A stretch of DNA of 23,603 nucleotides from a virus. How positions within the stretch are numbered: position 1 is the first letter of the stretch; each line of letters opens with the position of its first letter. The position numbers and the translations under genes are program-made. Positions 3,950 through 22,158 of this stretch are shown piece after piece. The notes below the pieces were generated by a model that had not been told where the DNA came from, made no database searches, and saw only the letters and a program-made list of their open reading frames with translations. The stretch is taken from IMG/VR virus record IMGVR_UViG_3300017743_000127, positions 1 through 23,603 of that record; one strand, given 5' to 3'.

Positions 3950-4289
3950 GCCCCGCGTAAAAACCTTTTGGCATTGGCGGCTTGCTGATGCTCACCAGCC
4001 TATCTTTGATCACGCTGCCGGCGTTCCAATGGTACGTTATTGCGTACGGGGCCATAAGTGGATTGATTGGGGTGAGTGCGAGGCCGCAAAGGTTAAGACC
4101 GCATTGGGCGAGATTTCGCAAGTTGAGGTCTGGGAAGGTTACAAGGTTGAGACAGCCATCGAGGCTTCTGAGCTTTTTCGGGATACTTTCTATTATAAAC
4201 TAGATGAGTGCTTGGCTGAACTCAGGAGACACATCCAGGGACGCCTTGATGCAAAAAAATCTATTGGCCCTTGGTACTTCCCCCTTTAA
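3915..4289 (+). CDS. Hypothetical protein overlapping the lysin gene
   Basis: A 124-residue soluble protein starting at TTG, supported by a strong AAAGGAGA ribosome binding site at 3901-3908 located inside the lysin gene. It contains WHWRLADAHQPIF, the Cys/His-bearing VRYCVRGHKWIDWGEC segment and a helical C-terminal half (EASELFRDTFYYKLDECLAELRRHIQGRL). No family recognised and no membrane helix, so it does not look like a holin or spanin. Position after the lysin is the only functional hint. It is the last gene of the first block; the repeated TCTACATACA element follows five bases after its stop codon. Confidence 0.65.
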   Translation: MDGTSFTQSTVKPRVKTFWHWRLADAHQPIFDHAAGVPMVRYCVRGHKWIDWGECEAAKVKTALGEISQVEVWEGYKVETAIEASELFRDTFYYKLDECLAELRRHIQGRLDAKKSIGPWYFPL

Positions 4290-4877: not shown

Positions 4878-5777
4878 ATGAACCAGATCGTAAGCCTTCA
4901 GTCAGACCTTCAAGCTTCTGAAAATCTCGCCGCTCAGTTTCGGGCTGATAGCACCATTGAGTCTTATCAGACCGGAGCCAAGCAGTTTGCGGAGTATTGC
5001 GAGACTAATGGTCTTTGCGCTTTACCCGCTGAACCACATGCCGTGAACGCTTTCATCGCTTACTTGTCAAAGCAGGGCAGAAGCGTTGGCACGATCAAAG
5101 CGCGTGTATCTGCTATTGGGTGGGTACATAAGACGGCGGGTTACTGGTCACCAACGTCTGATGCCACTGTTGAGATGGTTTTGGCCGGACTGACCCGCAC
5201 TGACACGACACCTATTAAGCAAGCCAAGCCTATGCTTGCCAACACAGCCAAGACCATCATCGATGCTATCGCAGCCGACGATGTACGGGCGGTTCGTGAT
5301 CGGGCATTGTTGCTGATGTCTTTCTTTGGAGCGTTTCGCCGGAGCGAGTTGGTGCAGATCCGCGTTTGTGACTTAGAGTTTACCGATGAGGGTGTGTCGG
5401 TTTACTTGGCGAAGTCCAAGACTGACCAAGAGGGTCATGGGCGTTGGGTTGCGGTTGCGCGTCAGGACAATGATTATTGCCCCGTTGATGCGTTAGAGGA
5501 TCATCTATTGGACATCGACGTTGGTCGGGTTTTTGCCGTCACTGGCCGCATGGTTGATAAGATCATTAAGAAGCTTGCAGTACGGGCGGGTTTTGACAAA
5601 ATGGAGTTCAGCCCTCACTCCTTGCGGGCGGGCATGATTACTCAGGCATCATTGAATGATGTTGAAAAGCGCGACATTCGTCGTATTAGTGGGCACAAAA
5701 CGGACGCAATGATTGATCGGTACACTCGCGTCACCGACCAATGGAAGAACAACGCAACACGGGGGTTGATGGGATGA
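4878..5777 (+). CDS. int: Tyrosine recombinase (phage integrase family)
   Basis: This 299-residue protein has the full two-domain architecture. The N-terminal SAM-like DNA-binding domain covers about residues 20-110 (TIESYQTGAKQFAEYCETNG then VNAFIAYLSKQGRSVGTIKA). The catalytic domain contains Arg154 (GAFRRSEL), Lys181 (KSKTDQEG), the HSLRAG box (His247, Arg250), His273 (SGHKT) and nucleophile Tyr282 (MIDRYTRV). All catalytic residues are present, so the enzyme is probably active in integration, excision or resolution. Length fits compact XerC/D-like phage integrases. It is downstream of an HTH gene and overlaps the next HTH gene by four bases (ATGA). No attP core or tRNA fragment was recognised nearby. 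Confidence 0.95.
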   Translation: MNQIVSLQSDLQASENLAAQFRADSTIESYQTGAKQFAEYCETNGLCALPAEPHAVNAFIAYLSKQGRSVGTIKARVSAIGWVHKTAGYWSPTSDATVEMVLAGLTRTDTTPIKQAKPMLANTAKTIIDAIAADDVRAVRDRALLLMSFFGAFRRSELVQIRVCDLEFTDEGVSVYLAKSKTDQEGHGRWVAVARQDNDYCPVDALEDHLLDIDVGRVFAVTGRMVDKIIKKLAVRAGFDKMEFSPHSLRAGMITQASLNDVEKRDIRRISGHKTDAMIDRYTRVTDQWKNNATRGLMG

Positions 5778-5980
5778 AATTGACCGGAAATGAATTTGAA
5801 GAGTTACTGGCTGAAGTTTATCCTGATGAGCGCTTTAAGCGCCACCGGCATCGGCGGCTCGCGGAAGAGTTTGATTTATCGCAAGCAACAATTCTAACTT
5901 GGACATCGCGAGGCACTCCATCTTGGATTGAACCAGTTTTGCTGATGCGGAAAAAATTAGGGGAGTATGAGAATGGATGA
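5774..5980 (+). CDS. Small HTH protein, possible excisionase or Cro-like regulator
   Basis: A 68-residue protein whose ATG overlaps the recombinase stop as ATGA, so translation is probably coupled. RRLAEEFDLSQATILTWTSR (about residues 28-47) fits helix-turn-helix spacing, followed by GTPSWIEPVLLM, as in many Cro-like or transposase-type helices. The preceding segment is basic (FKRHRHRR). Position immediately after an integrase makes a recombination directionality factor or a repressor plausible, but this is inference. A longer reading from 5741 would lie within the recombinase gene and is less likely. Confidence 0.65.
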   Translation: MKLTGNEFEELLAEVYPDERFKRHRHRRLAEEFDLSQATILTWTSRGTPSWIEPVLLMRKKLGEYENG

Positions 5981-6152
5981 AGACGCACTTAAACACGTTG
6001 TAAATGATCCGCACTTTGTGCAAGCGCTCAAAGATTTTGAGAAAATGGGCTTTATTAAAGTTGATAAAGGCAATGTTAAAATCATTGATCAAGAGGGAAT
6101 GCAAAAGTGGATGGAAAACTTTGGGAAGTGGGATGAAGGTCAAAAGCCATGA
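5973..6152 (+). CDS. Small acidic hypothetical protein
   Basis: A 59-residue protein from ATG 5973, chosen because AGGGGAG at 5959-5965 is seven bases upstream; in-frame ATG 5967 would be too close to it. The sequence (DPHFVQALKDFEKMGFIKVD then DQEGMQKWMENFGKWDEGQ) looks like a small helical domain. No family recognised. It overlaps the previous gene by eight bases and its stop codon overlaps the start of the ArfA-like gene as ATGA, linking all three to the recombinase operon. Confidence 0.6.
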   Translation: MDEDALKHVVNDPHFVQALKDFEKMGFIKVDKGNVKIIDQEGMQKWMENFGKWDEGQKP

Positions 6153-6295
6153 AAACGCGAAACCCGATGGCGCGGGATCTTAGGACGCCGAAATATCGCC
6201 CCCAAGTAGTCAAACCGAAAAAGGGCAAAGGTTCATACAACCGAAAGAAAGAAAAGGCCGCTGCGAAGCGGCTTTTTTATTGGTTTTTAATATAG
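6149..6295 (+). CDS. arfA: ArfA-like alternative ribosome-rescue factor with internal terminator
   Basis: A 48-residue, strongly basic ORF starting at ATG 6149, overlapping the upstream stop as ATGA and preceded by GAAGG at 6134-6138. Residues 5-33 (from RNP, ending KKGKGSYNRKK) closely follow the core of E. coli ArfA as I remember it: N-x-[IM]-x(3)-L-x(2)-P-x-[FY]-R, then V-x-K-x-KKGKGSY-x-RK. ArfA recruits RF2 to ribosomes stalled on mRNAs lacking a stop codon. A rho-independent terminator (6252-6278) lies inside the coding region, so most transcripts should end near codon 43 without a stop codon. This is the arrangement by which bacterial arfA is controlled by tmRNA. The real product may therefore be about 43 residues, lacking YWFLI. 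Confidence 0.7.
   Translation: MKTRNPMARDLRTPKYRPQVVKPKKGKGSYNRKKEKAAAKRLFYWFLI
6252..6278 (+). terminator. Rho-independent terminator inside the ArfA-like ORF
   Basis: GCCGCT (6257-6262), loop GCGA, AGCGGC (6267-6272), then six T residues (6273-6278); upstream AAAAG can extend pairing into the T tract. It ends the rightward control/integration operon and also lies between convergent operons. On the opposite strand the stem is followed by a CCTTTTCTTTCTTT stretch, so it may also stop the leftward operon. Confidence 0.9.
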
Positions 6296-6357: not shown

Positions 6358-7020
6358 CTAGCTGGCCGCTCTTTTATCTTGCCATTCAAAATGCTCACAC
6401 GCGTAATCCTTACAGTCGTGAATATTGCCCGCAGAACAAGTAATTATTAAAGTCTCCAACGCTAAATCAAAACCGCCACTCACCAATGCATGTTCCACTA
6501 CTTTCAAAGCATTAACATGGGAAATTTCGGGGTTCTCAGTGTTGTTTTTCTGTGCATATGGGTGAAACCATTTACGATGAAGCCCTGCATCCTTTTCTGC
6601 CTGATTAATTAATAAAAAGTGCCGATGGGGGTTTTTATTGATAGCAATGCTTTCAATCATGTCTCTTCTAAAAGCCTTTAATCTATTGAACCCTGCCATG
6701 TTTTTGATTGGTGGGTTTTTAACTTTAAATTGGTTATGTTGAATATTGTATTTTGGCGCGAGCTTTTTGATCAGACTGCGCTCTTGTTTTTGCGCTTCTT
6801 CTCTTGTTTTAAACCAGTGAATTTTTATGTTTTCGACTTCTTCAAACCAATCTTTGGCCTTCGAATGCTGATGTGTTCTGAATAAAGGCTTATAGGATAT
6901 TCCTACATAAAGAACCTCATTGTGCTTATTTGTATGTACATAAACACTTGTTTTTTTTGGGCTTTGAGTTGAAGAAAAATTGTTCCACAATTCTTCCTCA
7001 GTTTGATTTGAATCTTTCAT
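6358..7020 (-). CDS. GIY-YIG family endonuclease-like protein
   Basis: A 220-residue protein with an N-terminal GIY-YIG domain (about residues 24-93). VYVHT (Tyr27) and LYVGIS (Tyr38) form the signature, Arg48 in LFRTHQH is the likely catalytic Arg, and Glu80 in QERSLIKKLAPKYN with Asn92 completes the active site. These nucleases cut one DNA strand per domain; free-standing phage versions can be homing nucleases or DNA-processing enzymes. The remaining 120 residues are unrecognised and end in a Cys/His-rich segment (CSAGNIHDCKDYACEHFEW) that might bind zinc. It is the last gene of the leftward terminase operon and overlaps the gene before it by 23 bases, so it is operonic rather than an isolated insertion. 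Confidence 0.8.
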   Translation of the reverse strand: MKDSNQTEEELWNNFSSTQSPKKTSVYVHTNKHNEVLYVGISYKPLFRTHQHSKAKDWFEEVENIKIHWFKTREEAQKQERSLIKKLAPKYNIQHNQFKVKNPPIKNMAGFNRLKAFRRDMIESIAINKNPHRHFLLINQAEKDAGLHRKWFHPYAQKNNTENPEISHVNALKVVEHALVSGGFDLALETLIITCSAGNIHDCKDYACEHFEWQDKRAAS

Positions 7021-17372: not shown

Positions 17373-20300
17373 TACTTCCGGCGAAACGCCCAGCGCTTCA
17401 GATTTAGACGTTGGTGAAATCGCCGTTAATACCGCTGATGGTAAGTTGTTTGTGAAGCACACTGATGGCACTGTTGTTGAAATCTCTGGCGGTGGTGGGG
17501 GCGGGAGCGTTTCGACGCTGTCTGACACGACGATTACGTCCCTCGGTGATGGCGAGTTACTTGTTTATGACACCACTAGCAGCAAGTGGATCAATCAAAC
17601 TCTTTCTGAGGCCGGGATTGCAGCATTGACCTCACCTGGGCTGACCGGAACACCTACTGCGCCAACGGCTAGCGCGGCAACAAACAGCACCCAGATCGCC
17701 ACGACTGCCTATGTAACTACAGCGGTTTCTAATCTGGTTGATAGCGCTCCAGGTGCGCTGAACACCCTCAACGAACTGGCGGCTGCGCTGGGTGATGATG
17801 CTAACTTTAGCACTACTGTAACTAATTCAATCGCTACTAAACTGCCATTATCTGGCGGCACTATGTCGGGCCAGTTAGTTATTGCTGACAACGATGGCGG
17901 TCAGTCTATGTTGCAAGTGCGTAACTTTGCGACTTCAGCCACAGGCGGCTTTACAAACAGCTATACAGCAGAGATTAGAGGCGCAACATCAGGCGGTCAA
18001 ACGCATGGCATGTTGATTAATTTAAACGAAGCAAATGATAGCAGACGAACACTAGACATAGGTGATAACAACGGTGTTTTTGCATCTTTTGTGAATGGTA
18101 AATTAGGGCTTGGTGGTCAGACTAGTCCTGAAGCAAAGCTAGACATTAAAGGCGATACACAGACTTACGCCGGGATGGCAAAGATTTACTTAACTGATAC
18201 TAGCTCAAGCGTCGCTCGACGTAATTGGGCGATAGGTAACGGCGGTAGTGCATACGGAAACTTTACGATTGGCCTCAGTAATGCGGCTGATGGTGATCCA
18301 ATGGCGTCTGGCACTCACACAACTCCGTTTATTATTAATAACAGCGGCAACTCATTCTTCTCAGGCGATGTTCAAGTGGCTGGGCTGTATGTAGGTTCTT
18401 CAAATACGTCCTATGACTTCTACAATAACGGCACGACATATCTTAACGGCGCAACGACAATTGATGATAGTCTTTTAAGCGGCGACATCCATATAAAAAG
18501 TGGAACAAGTGGTACAAACACGCAGGGTTTGCTGTTTAGTCTCAATGACAATGCAGACGCCCAAGCGTATATCAAAAAAACCTCTTATTATATGCACTAT
18601 AACGCCCATCAAAATGAGGGACATAGATTTACCGTTAGTGGAGGTGACGATTTATTGCGGATGCACGGGGCTAACAACGGAACACGCCCTGACAGCATAG
18701 ATATTTTGGCAGCTAATGGCCTTTACATGGGCAACACTCAAGTAATGACGCTGGGTAGAGCGTTAACTAATATTACAGGGGGAACTGTCGCTGGAAGTTT
18801 AACCGTCAACAGCGTAACATTTAAAAGCAACAGCAACGTCACTCGCAATTTAAAAATTCAACCAAGTGGCACCGCAACTGATGTTGGTGTTTCTATATAT
18901 ACTCCCAGCGGTTCCCATTCCATTCAGCTTTATGGCAACGCCACTGAATATGGTTTTTTAGATGCTAATTGGGCAAGCTGGGATATAAAGAAAACTAAAA
19001 ATGGAGCCTTTAAAGTAGATGAAGGCGGCGGCTTACAGCGTGTTTTCAATGATGGCTATCACCCTAACGCAGACGCATGGACTACTGCCAGAACGTTGTC
19101 CCTCTCAGGTGACGCATCAGGCAGTGTAAGCTGGGACGGTTCAGCTAATGCTACACTGAGTGTTAGTGTTGGTGATGCTGATACTGTTGACGGAAAACAA
19201 GCAACAGATTTGCTACACTACAGAGGTGCAGTCAGTGGTGATTGGGATACTATTTTTACAACAGGTACAGGTAAAACAAACACCAGTGGTCTATATCAAA
19301 TAAACAATCACCAAAGTGGTCATAGTAATTACCCCAGTGGTAGTTACAGTTATGGTGGTGTGTTTGCTTGGCAATTAGCTAACAGTACATTTAAACTGTA
19401 TGCACCTCATACTGGCACCCTTTTTTATCAAACTGGTTGGGGTAATGATGAATACAGTGGCTGGCGTAAAATTTGGGATAGTGGCAACGATGGCTCTGGC
19501 AGTGGCCTAGATGCTGATTTGCTTGATGGTGTACATGGTAGTAGCTTCCTAAGAAGTGATGCAGATGATACTTTTACGGGTGATTTAACCCACGTTGGCG
19601 GTGCTGTTTTTGGGGCAGGTACATTAACTGCTGATGGTCAAAATGACATCTTTATGTTTGGTACAAGCCCGACTGGTATTACAGCACAGGGGGGAAACTA
19701 CCATAACAAACTAAGAATTTTAGGCGGTGCAGGTCAAAGCAGAGACTTGCAGCTTTATCAGATAGACAGCGAGTATGCGCATATTGGCTCTAGCTGGACA
19801 AGCAATCAGTTAACTATTGATAGTTCCTTTACTCAGGTAAACTTTAATCAATCTATACGAGCACCCATCTTCTACGACAGCAACGACACTGCTTACTACG
19901 TTGATCCTGCAAGTACATCTGTTGTCAATCAAGTTATAGCCACCAACATAGAGTTTGGAGACAGTACTGGCCCTATTTTATCAGAAGAAAGAAATCAAAA
20001 CCTTAAACTGCAAGGGTCAACCGGCGGCGATGTTGGTATAAGTGGGTATGGTTCTGATGGAAATTGGGATTTTCAATTATACGGCACTGGTGGACAGCAA
20101 GGCTTTTTAAAGTCTAACTGGGGGTCTTGGTCAGCTTATGCTGATACTAGCGGTAACTGGTTTGGTACAGCTAGTGTTCGTGCCCCTATCTTCTACGATA
20201 GCGACAACACAGGTTATTACGTTGATCCAGCAAGTACGGGCAGCAGTGTTCGTATAAAAGGTAATATTGACACCAGAACACAAAACAGCACTACTCAAAA

Positions 20301-22158
20301 TAACCAACTGTATTTTGGTATAAATAACGGTAATGCTAATGGAACCTCGAATGAGATTGGTACAGGTATTACTTGGGCACCTCTATATACATCATATACC
20401 AAACGATCCGCTGGCATCTTACAAATAGGTGAAGGTAACTATTTTAGATCAGGACTTGCATTTTATACAAACAACACCGCTGACGTTTCAACAGATTGGT
20501 CGGAGAGAATGCGGCTTGATATGGATGGCAATCTTATTATCAACCAAGCAGAAATAACCTATACATCAGGTGATAATATACGGCTTACTGGATCGTATAC
20601 ATCAAATAGACTGCACATAAACGGCTCTATACAGCTAACAAACAACGGCGATGCACTAGTGATTGGTCGTGGAACTTCTACATTTCTCTCTGATGAAGAG
20701 CTTGGCTTTGGCTGGGGCAGCGGCTGGTATCAGACAGATGCAACGTATCTAAGGGTGCGTAATAATAAGTCTGTTTACAGCACAGGTGATGCTAGGTTTA
20801 GTACTTACTACGACAGTAACGACACAGCTTACTATGCAAACCCTAACAGTGACAGTAGGATGGCTAGACTGCTTGTTGGTGATGGCAGCAACTACATCCG
20901 CATAGGTGACGAGGGCGAAGGTGCTAATACTAGTTATTCTCGCATCAGAACAGACTCAAGTGGGAATCTTTATTTAGATGCAAAAGGATCACAAAATATA
21001 TATTTAGGTTGGTGGAGTAGTCCTGCTTCTAGGGTTTTCTCAGAAATGGGCGCACAGTTTCCTGTTTACTATGACCGCAACGACACAGCCTACTATACAA
21101 ACCCTGCAAACAACTCTGTGATGAATCAGATCAGTCTGGGTGTTCCAGGCAATGGTTCAAATACCAAAGGCCGTTTTATAGCACTAGAGGGCAACACAGA
21201 CAGTAATGGTGAAGCTTCTAGTCGTATATTCTTCTCAGAACACAATAGCAGTACTGCGAGTATGGACGGATATGGAATGTCTCTTGGCTATCTTGGTGGC
21301 GCTACAAGTATAACAGGTACATCTGGTAACGCTTGGACAGGTTTGTCACAGATCAGCAATGGTCAGTGGGGAATGTGGGGGCATGATGGTAATGCTACAG
21401 GCGCACTCGTTATGTACGGTGATCGTGCTGCTACTTATGTTAACTTTTCTGGCAATGACATTAGTGGTATTAATATTGGAACAGCCGGTAATTCATTCCG
21501 TGCCCCTATCTTCTACGACAGTAACGACACTGCTTACTACGTCAATCCCAACGGCACATCACGCCTAAACGCAATCGACTTTGGTGATAGTAGCCCAACA
21601 CTTTCCCAAGACGGTGATTATTTAAGAGTAACAAGTAGTTACGGATATGCTAATATAGGGGCAGGAAACAGTAGCTACTTTCATTTTTCCACAGACAGAG
21701 GCCAGTTTTACTTCAACAAGACGATACAAGTGGATGGCGATGGCATTCGCATGTACGACACCGCCGCTGATGTTCGTGCATATATCTTTTATGATCAGAG
21801 CGATACAAACTACTACGCTGATCCTGCAAGTACATCTGTATTTAACCAGATCAACGTCACTACCTTAAATTCAACATCTGATATTCGTTTCAAGTCTGAT
21901 CTGCAAAAGATAGACAGCGCTGTTGATAAGTTAAAAACGATTAGCGGCTACACCTACATTCTAAAAGATCACGATGATCGCAAAGCTGGCTTAATTGCAC
22001 AAGAGGTAGAGGGTGTTCTGCCAGAAGCTGTCAAAGGCAGCGAAGATAAAAAACTCTTAGATTACCAAGCGACTATCGCCCTGCTTGTTGAGGCTGTCAA
22101 AGAGCAGTCTGAACAAATCGCAACCCTAAAATCACGCTTAACAAAATTGGAGCATTGA
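17341..22158 (+). CDS. Giant tail fibre with C-terminal S74 intramolecular chaperone
   Basis: A 1605-residue fibre. The N-terminal attachment module (VKHKRSSTSGETPSASDLDV, then GEIAVNTADGKLFVKHTDGT) is followed by fibre modules such as LTGTPTAPTASAATNSTQIA and LPLSGGTMSGQLV. A long Gly/Ser/Asn-rich shaft follows, and then six copies of a FYDSNDTAYYVDPAST-type repeat. The last 93 residues are a peptidase S74 / endosialidase chaperone domain: TSDIRFKSDLQKI with probable self-cleaving Ser1513, AGLIAQEVEGVLPEAV, LDYQATIALLVEAVKE and a terminal coiled coil. The domain drives trimer folding and is released by autocleavage. GTG 17341 has AGGGG seven bases upstream; an in-frame TTG at 17314 is less likely. 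It is the likely receptor-binding protein. Confidence 0.9.
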   Translation: MANVVKHKRSSTSGETPSASDLDVGEIAVNTADGKLFVKHTDGTVVEISGGGGGGSVSTLSDTTITSLGDGELLVYDTTSSKWINQTLSEAGIAALTSPGLTGTPTAPTASAATNSTQIATTAYVTTAVSNLVDSAPGALNTLNELAAALGDDANFSTTVTNSIATKLPLSGGTMSGQLVIADNDGGQSMLQVRNFATSATGGFTNSYTAEIRGATSGGQTHGMLINLNEANDSRRTLDIGDNNGVFASFVNGKLGLGGQTSPEAKLDIKGDTQTYAGMAKIYLTDTSSSVARRNWAIGNGGSAYGNFTIGLSNAADGDPMASGTHTTPFIINNSGNSFFSGDVQVAGLYVGSSNTSYDFYNNGTTYLNGATTIDDSLLSGDIHIKSGTSGTNTQGLLFSLNDNADAQAYIKKTSYYMHYNAHQNEGHRFTVSGGDDLLRMHGANNGTRPDSIDILAANGLYMGNTQVMTLGRALTNITGGTVAGSLTVNSVTFKSNSNVTRNLKIQPSGTATDVGVSIYTPSGSHSIQLYGNATEYGFLDANWASWDIKKTKNGAFKVDEGGGLQRVFNDGYHPNADAWTTARTLSLSGDASGSVSWDGSANATLSVSVGDADTVDGKQATDLLHYRGAVSGDWDTIFTTGTGKTNTSGLYQINNHQSGHSNYPSGSYSYGGVFAWQLANSTFKLYAPHTGTLFYQTGWGNDEYSGWRKIWDSGNDGSGSGLDADLLDGVHGSSFLRSDADDTFTGDLTHVGGAVFGAGTLTADGQNDIFMFGTSPTGITAQGGNYHNKLRILGGAGQSRDLQLYQIDSEYAHIGSSWTSNQLTIDSSFTQVNFNQSIRAPIFYDSNDTAYYVDPASTSVVNQVIATNIEFGDSTGPILSEERNQNLKLQGSTGGDVGISGYGSDGNWDFQLYGTGGQQGFLKSNWGSWSAYADTSGNWFGTASVRAPIFYDSDNTGYYVDPASTGSSVRIKGNIDTRTQNSTTQNNQLYFGINNGNANGTSNEIGTGITWAPLYTSYTKRSAGILQIGEGNYFRSGLAFYTNNTADVSTDWSERMRLDMDGNLIINQAEITYTSGDNIRLTGSYTSNRLHINGSIQLTNNGDALVIGRGTSTFLSDEELGFGWGSGWYQTDATYLRVRNNKSVYSTGDARFSTYYDSNDTAYYANPNSDSRMARLLVGDGSNYIRIGDEGEGANTSYSRIRTDSSGNLYLDAKGSQNIYLGWWSSPASRVFSEMGAQFPVYYDRNDTAYYTNPANNSVMNQISLGVPGNGSNTKGRFIALEGNTDSNGEASSRIFFSEHNSSTASMDGYGMSLGYLGGATSITGTSGNAWTGLSQISNGQWGMWGHDGNATGALVMYGDRAATYVNFSGNDISGINIGTAGNSFRAPIFYDSNDTAYYVNPNGTSRLNAIDFGDSSPTLSQDGDYLRVTSSYGYANIGAGNSSYFHFSTDRGQFYFNKTIQVDGDGIRMYDTAADVRAYIFYDQSDTNYYADPASTSVFNQINVTTLNSTSDIRFKSDLQKIDSAVDKLKTISGYTYILKDHDDRKAGLIAQEVEGVLPEAVKGSEDKKLLDYQATIALLVEAVKEQSEQIATLKSRLTKLEH
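19858..21840 (+). repeat. Six degenerate in-frame fibre repeats (YDSNDTAYYVDP type)
   Basis: The copies begin near 19858, 20179, 20797, 21061, 21499 and 21775. The core is FYDSNDTAYYVDPAST, with variants such as YYDSNDTAYYANP, YYDRNDTAYYTNP and FYDQSDTNYYADP. Spacing is irregular (about 260 to 620 bases), so each caps a variable shaft segment. At the DNA level the copies are unusually alike (for example ATCTTCTACGA at copies 1, 2 and 5), which could promote recombination between segments. Confidence 0.85.

Follow-up and report, generated by a model that had tools for sequence, protein, structure and literature searches.

An ArfA-like gene with an intrinsic terminator inside its reading frame at the end of a phage integrase operon, and recurrence of this architecture among viral ArfA genes

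Does a small gene at the end of a phage integrase operon carry the switch by which bacterial ribosome-rescue factors respond to tmRNA? Nonstop, tmRNA-sensing arfA is known from bacterial chromosomes, while phage ArfA, already published for HTVC027P (gp30; PMC12753301) and, in the ArfA passages of PMC8953757, for RXM (g10), has been annotated with no mention of such control. Hairpins within the coding frame cause both E. coli arfA and B. subtilis brfA to yield nonstop mRNA, and tmRNA represses the two genes (PMC3989581, PMC6881298); the nonstop mRNA of E. coli arfA arises by hairpin-directed termination or by RNase III cleavage (PMC3989581, PMC8012679). Such mRNAs are nonstop because the ORF itself contains the hairpin or terminator; tmRNA then tags what is translated from them, so that the factor is seen only once trans-translation becomes insufficient (PMC3989581, PMC6881298, PMC8012679). 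The bacterial nonstop arfA/brfA genes and phage ArfA are each known separately; in the full-text literature, in which subscription journals are thinly covered, we found no report of a nonstop arfA in phages, which is weak evidence of absence.

We analysed a window of 23,603 nucleotides, positions 1 to 23,603 of IMG/VR record IMGVR_UViG_3300017743_000127 (G+C 47%), in which TerL, TerS, a portal and a major head protein are encoded elsewhere. The portal is most similar to those of a Microcystis phage and of alphaproteobacterial phages, the matches of the head protein are remote, and a scan with the integrase found no close relatives of the whole phage. The features around the gene of interest are the following:

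4878–5777, plus strand: tyrosine integrase, which opens the run of coupled genes (PF00589, E 4.2e-14; PHROG integrase, E 1.2e-18)
5774–5980, plus strand: 68-aa small protein, possibly helix-turn-helix (weak; PF07022, E 0.0094, below the cut-off)
5973–6152, plus strand: 59-aa protein of unknown function, ORF opening at 5967 (no family match of note)
6149–6295, plus strand: arfA-like ORF of 48 codons (PF03889 match)
6218–6247, plus strand: KKGKGSYNRK codons (residues 24–33), mRNA-channel core of ArfA
6251–6278, plus strand: intrinsic terminator within the ORF, hairpin and T6, 12-bp stem with a G+C core at 6257–6272
6276–6280, plus strand: predicted mRNA 3' end, ahead of any stop, after codon 43 or 44, from the terminator position
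6293–6295, plus strand: TAG stop 3' of the terminator
6257–6272, minus strand: the same hairpin, possible terminator of the convergent gene
6358–7020, minus strand: GIY-YIG endonuclease, convergent neighbour (PF01541, E 3.7e-8)

The gene order is integrase, 68-aa gene, 59-aa gene and, last, arfA. ATGA overlaps join the integrase stop to the start of the 68-aa gene (5774–5777) and the TGA of the 59-aa gene to the arfA ATG (6149–6152), which supports the coupling to the integrase operon that an initial annotation of this DNA had proposed. Integration of the phage in ssrA was considered as well and is unsupported, as a search for an attP with a tRNA or tmRNA 3' end gave no match.

The initial annotation had also described a 48-codon ORF from an ATG at 6149 to a TAG at 6293 and assigned its product to ArfA, and both points are borne out. 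The plus-strand ORF translates as MKTRNPMARDLRTPKYRPQVVKPKKGKGSYNRKKEKAAAKRLFYWFLI, and in an HMM search this product scored 33.3 bits (E 3.3e-8) against Pfam ArfA (PF03889; curated cut-off 25.5 bits), its sole Pfam match. ArfA was also recovered when all six frames of the record were searched for families, E. coli being the only control genome with a match, while the PHROGs match of the product is a family of unknown function. When solved structures were searched with the single sequence, only E. coli ArfA chains were returned, and weakly (E 0.006); a profile from 16 phage sequences retrieved E. coli ArfA chains on the ribosome at E 1e-9, in a gapless alignment of 32 positions (5–36 of the phage profile with 16–47 of the E. 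coli chain). Residues K25, G26, K27, G28, S29 and R32 are invariant in the alignment of phage and bacterial ArfA, and the N-terminal RF2-contact segment keeps its fixed distance before the core, with individual residues only partly conserved. A short basic peptide that resembles ArfA by chance, and is not a rescue factor, could account for the Pfam model scoring residues 14–36 only and for the lack of an NCBIfam match of the product, but hardly for a score above the curated cut-off, invariant core residues, the preserved E. coli ArfA spacing and the many relatives in phages, so that we regard it as extremely unlikely. Given the Pfam score and the profile match to the structure chains, membership of the ArfA family is sound by sequence, and from it we infer a function on the ribosome.

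The terminator lies exactly where it had been claimed, in codons 37–44. A perfect 6-bp stem is formed by GCCGCT (6257–6262) and AGCGGC (6267–6272) around a GCGA loop and is followed by six T residues (6273–6278); with flanking A-U and G-U pairs, the stem lengthens to 12 bp and the extended element (6251–6278) covers codons 35–44, with a folding energy of -17.4 kcal/mol and a z of -2.9 for the 51-nt stretch. When the 116-nt 3' region was shuffled 2000 times with its dinucleotide content preserved, no equal terminator arose. By a strict criterion, no other plus-strand site in the 23,603 bases scores 17 or more, and 1 of 20 shuffled windows held a site of equal score. The hairpin and T run are located 3' of the KKGKGSYNRK core and 15–20 nt 5' of the TAG, the arrangement of nonstop genes of the arfA/brfA type, and the predicted product is a nonstop mRNA for about 43 residues including the whole functional core. 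The reading frame across the hairpin comes from a single metagenomic contig, and it stands without a confirming second copy because the two near-identical contigs found in a TerL scan (one with a 99% identical TerL) do not include the arfA region.

On the opposite strand, the hairpin is followed by CTTTTCTTTC, a T-rich tail there too, and it can serve as a transcription terminator for the convergent GIY-YIG gene as well, a point that the first reading had overlooked. The hairpin might be an ordinary bidirectional terminator between convergent operons, with the ArfA frame running into it by chance; a nonstop mRNA could still be formed, but it would not have been selected for control by tmRNA. 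The position of the hairpin, with the convergent GIY-YIG gene 81 nt past the T run, suits this explanation well, as does the absence of the device from the nearest relatives.

The position of terminators in other viral ArfA genes bears on this question. IMG/VR was searched for the codons of the core with a T run 12–42 nt downstream, on either side of the stop and with no hairpin required; such looser scans were needed because a strict KGKGS plus GCTTTTT pattern had given only cases without an in-frame terminator. Among distinct viral ArfA-like ORFs, a strong terminator was located before the stop in 32 (including the window), across it in 1 and after it in 1, with none in 45, whereas terminators of ordinary genes on the same contigs were located before the stop in 9 cases, across it in 8 and after it in 75. 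The contrast (32 before versus 2 at or after in viral ArfA, 9 versus 83 in ordinary genes; Fisher p 2e-19) remained when the sequences were grouped, by 60% identity outside the core, into 16 clusters (p 4e-11); the scans do, however, select for T runs close to the core, the clusters do not amount to a tree, and most contigs are fragments. One member (L005) is in-ORF by rule but has a weak tail (TTCTTGCT) and is better dropped, which brings the cluster count to 15. With bacterial sequences included, a strong terminator lies no more than 75 nt from KGKGSY in 34 of 137 distinct sequences, versus 0.13 expected from shuffles. In viral ArfA ORFs, the frame often stays open for 30–226 nt past the point where the T run begins, as expected without selection on the codons there.

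Judged by the 32 terminators before the stop versus 2 at or after it, the nonstop layout is found again and again in phage ArfA, much more often than expected, and this family-level comparison supports the in-ORF terminator of the initial annotation. For a bidirectional terminator met by chance, the same bias would have to have arisen by accident in precisely the family noted for in-ORF hairpins, in 16 clusters whose hairpins differ from one another, and we therefore consider this explanation unlikely. A same-strand gene ends close upstream in 7 of the 32 ORFs with an in-ORF terminator versus 28 of the 45 without, in counts that ignore relatedness; the arfA of the window is unusual because device and operon are both present.

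The closest relatives are mostly different. Nearly all of the 80 nearest phage loci stop soon after the core without a strong in-ORF terminator, and among 37 distinct nearest-relative ORFs with an intact KGKGS, 35 have no terminator, 1 has it after the stop and 1 has a weak one in the ORF. Since most of the closest phage relatives have a plain stop and no device, the device is no general trait of phage ArfA. The initial annotation is supported in part: the ArfA assignment, the in-ORF terminator and the operon end stand, while the plain-stop closest relatives had been missed. Pelagiphage HTVC027P gp30 is likewise a PF03889 ArfA, with high expression both early and late in SAR11 infection (PMC12753301), but it ends with a stop codon (KKGRGSFKRDNGIT) and has no in-ORF terminator. 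In the ArfA annotated as g10 of Citromicrobium phage RXM, the ORF crosses a strong hairpin after the core, but only a short T run follows the hairpin, and the ArfA passages of PMC8953757 do not discuss regulation. The ArfA-like ORF of Ochrobactrum phage OC (vB_OspM_OC) also has a hairpin inside, and several phage records are annotated ArfA.

ArfA-like ORFs are also present on SAR11 chromosomes (L094–L114), with an ArfA core about 57% identical to that of the phage protein but with a plain stop and no terminator in the ORF. Because these and the nearest phage relatives are stop-coded without such a terminator, the device is not required by ArfA. The SAR11 (Pelagibacteraceae) ORF, present in the same genomes and in L153 at about 4001–4140, encodes 38–52 aa; one tested was above the Pfam cut-off, and in L112 the ORF is convergent with an adenosine-kinase-like gene amid housekeeping genes. 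A 2024 survey table lists no arfA in 2,376 Alphaproteobacteria (PMC11633108). By tblastn, the SAR11 matches seemed to run on into the C-terminal tail, but in the DNA the core is followed by a stop codon, and the conserved 3' region overlaps the end of the convergent adenosine-kinase-like gene and is not a terminator. Caulobacter phage Cr30 (L332:647-799) has, between two annotated genes, an ArfA-like ORF that lacks annotation and ends in a plain stop codon. A sister group (L009, L018, L024, L027, L030, L042 and L043) has an N-terminal MKTRNPMARDLRTPKYR half in common with the window protein and a KNKTLPRKAKHK-like stretch in place of KKGKGSYNRK; one member is weakly DUF7230 in Pfam, and the group is perhaps an ArfA relative with a changed mRNA-channel part.

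The best explanation of the locus, and one that we consider probable, is a phage-encoded ArfA made from nonstop mRNA and kept low by tmRNA. Its termination, tagging, RF2 recruitment and timing in infection we infer as follows. RNA polymerase would stop at the in-ORF hairpin, so that the message would break off near codon 43, ahead of any stop codon, while retaining the RF2-binding and mRNA-channel part (residues 1–33), and ribosomes at its end would stall. As long as host trans-translation has spare capacity, tmRNA would tag the peptide for proteolysis and ArfA would stay low; once tmRNA is saturated or lost, untagged ArfA would accumulate and recruit host RF2 and would free stalled ribosomes, including those on arfA's own message. 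No Rfam family or tmRNA was found within the window.

As far as its sequence can tell, the phage gene has every feature of the E. coli and B. subtilis nonstop devices. It resembles E. coli arfA (YhdL) in the KKGKGSYxRK core, the upstream spacing, the in-ORF hairpin after the core and the hydrophobic tail beyond, but the E. coli gene is chromosomal, has 72 codons and is transcribed from its own promoter inside zntR, whereas the phage gene has 48 codons, ends an integrase operon and has a classical terminator T run. With B. subtilis brfA it would share a Rho-independent terminator in the coding region, nonstop mRNA, control by tmRNA and dependence on RF2, although brfA is chromosomal and has been described as evolutionarily distinct from ArfA (PMC6881298). 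Ribosomes following closely behind the polymerase might instead block the hairpin, in which case the full-length, stop-coded protein would be the main product and the phage ArfA constitutive. Coupling through the ATGA overlap does suggest that arfA is well translated, and many phage ArfAs have plain stop codons; however, the hairpins of E. coli arfA and B. subtilis brfA work despite translation (PMC3989581, PMC6881298), and the residual tail LFYWFLI is hydrophobic, like the tail owing to which full-length E. coli ArfA is unstable (PMC3989581), which makes a constitutive factor very unlikely.

If phage ArfA is made from nonstop mRNA, the rest of the operon might be affected as well. In E. coli, translation of nonstop arfA leads tmRNA and PNPase to degrade the upstream cistron zntR (PMC10107115). 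Since the nonstop arfA of the phage is the translationally coupled last cistron and the integrase occupies the upstream position corresponding to that of zntR, trans-translation on arfA might set off decay that runs 3' to 5' through the entire int message. Integrase would then be kept down as long as tmRNA is functioning and, along with ArfA, be freed once tmRNA is overloaded or disabled. We offer this as a tentative proposal with a fairly low chance of being right; if true, the phage would read the ribosome-rescue capacity of its host, and this would govern integration or excision.

The in-ORF terminators in about 15 divergent clusters suggest that phages repeatedly keep or acquire the switch, and if it does recur, trans-translation capacity would be something that phages sense. 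This raises the testable question of whether infection overloads tmRNA and whether phages time the backup to that moment. For annotation, residues past the hairpin in such phage ArfA genes are probably not made.

Further observations concern ArfA-like proteins outside the main set and other parts of the window. Some phage proteins (L181, L199, L298 and L305) have the KKGKGSYNRK core with a different N-terminal half (IPWNTGxRxxKP) and fall below the Pfam cut-off; they also carry in-ORF terminators and may be a distinct type of rescue factor. Sinorhizobium phage phiM12 (L339:701-841) encodes an ArfA-like ORF whose core is altered to KKTYNRKK and in which a perfect hairpin with its T run ends about 17 nt ahead of the stop; nearly identical proteins occur in phiM7, phiM19 and phiN3. 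Within the window, TCTACATACA occurs in four exact plus-strand copies, at 1099, 4294, 4568 (within the inverted repeat GATTCTACATACAGAATC) and 10227, and in 8 copies versus 0.94 expected when one mismatch and both strands are allowed; the copies lie mostly near gene starts or between genes, as a possible operator or promoter element. A 1614-aa tail-region protein contains six copies of a YDSNDTAYYVDP-type repeat (50-nt direct repeats; 19858–21824, plus strand).
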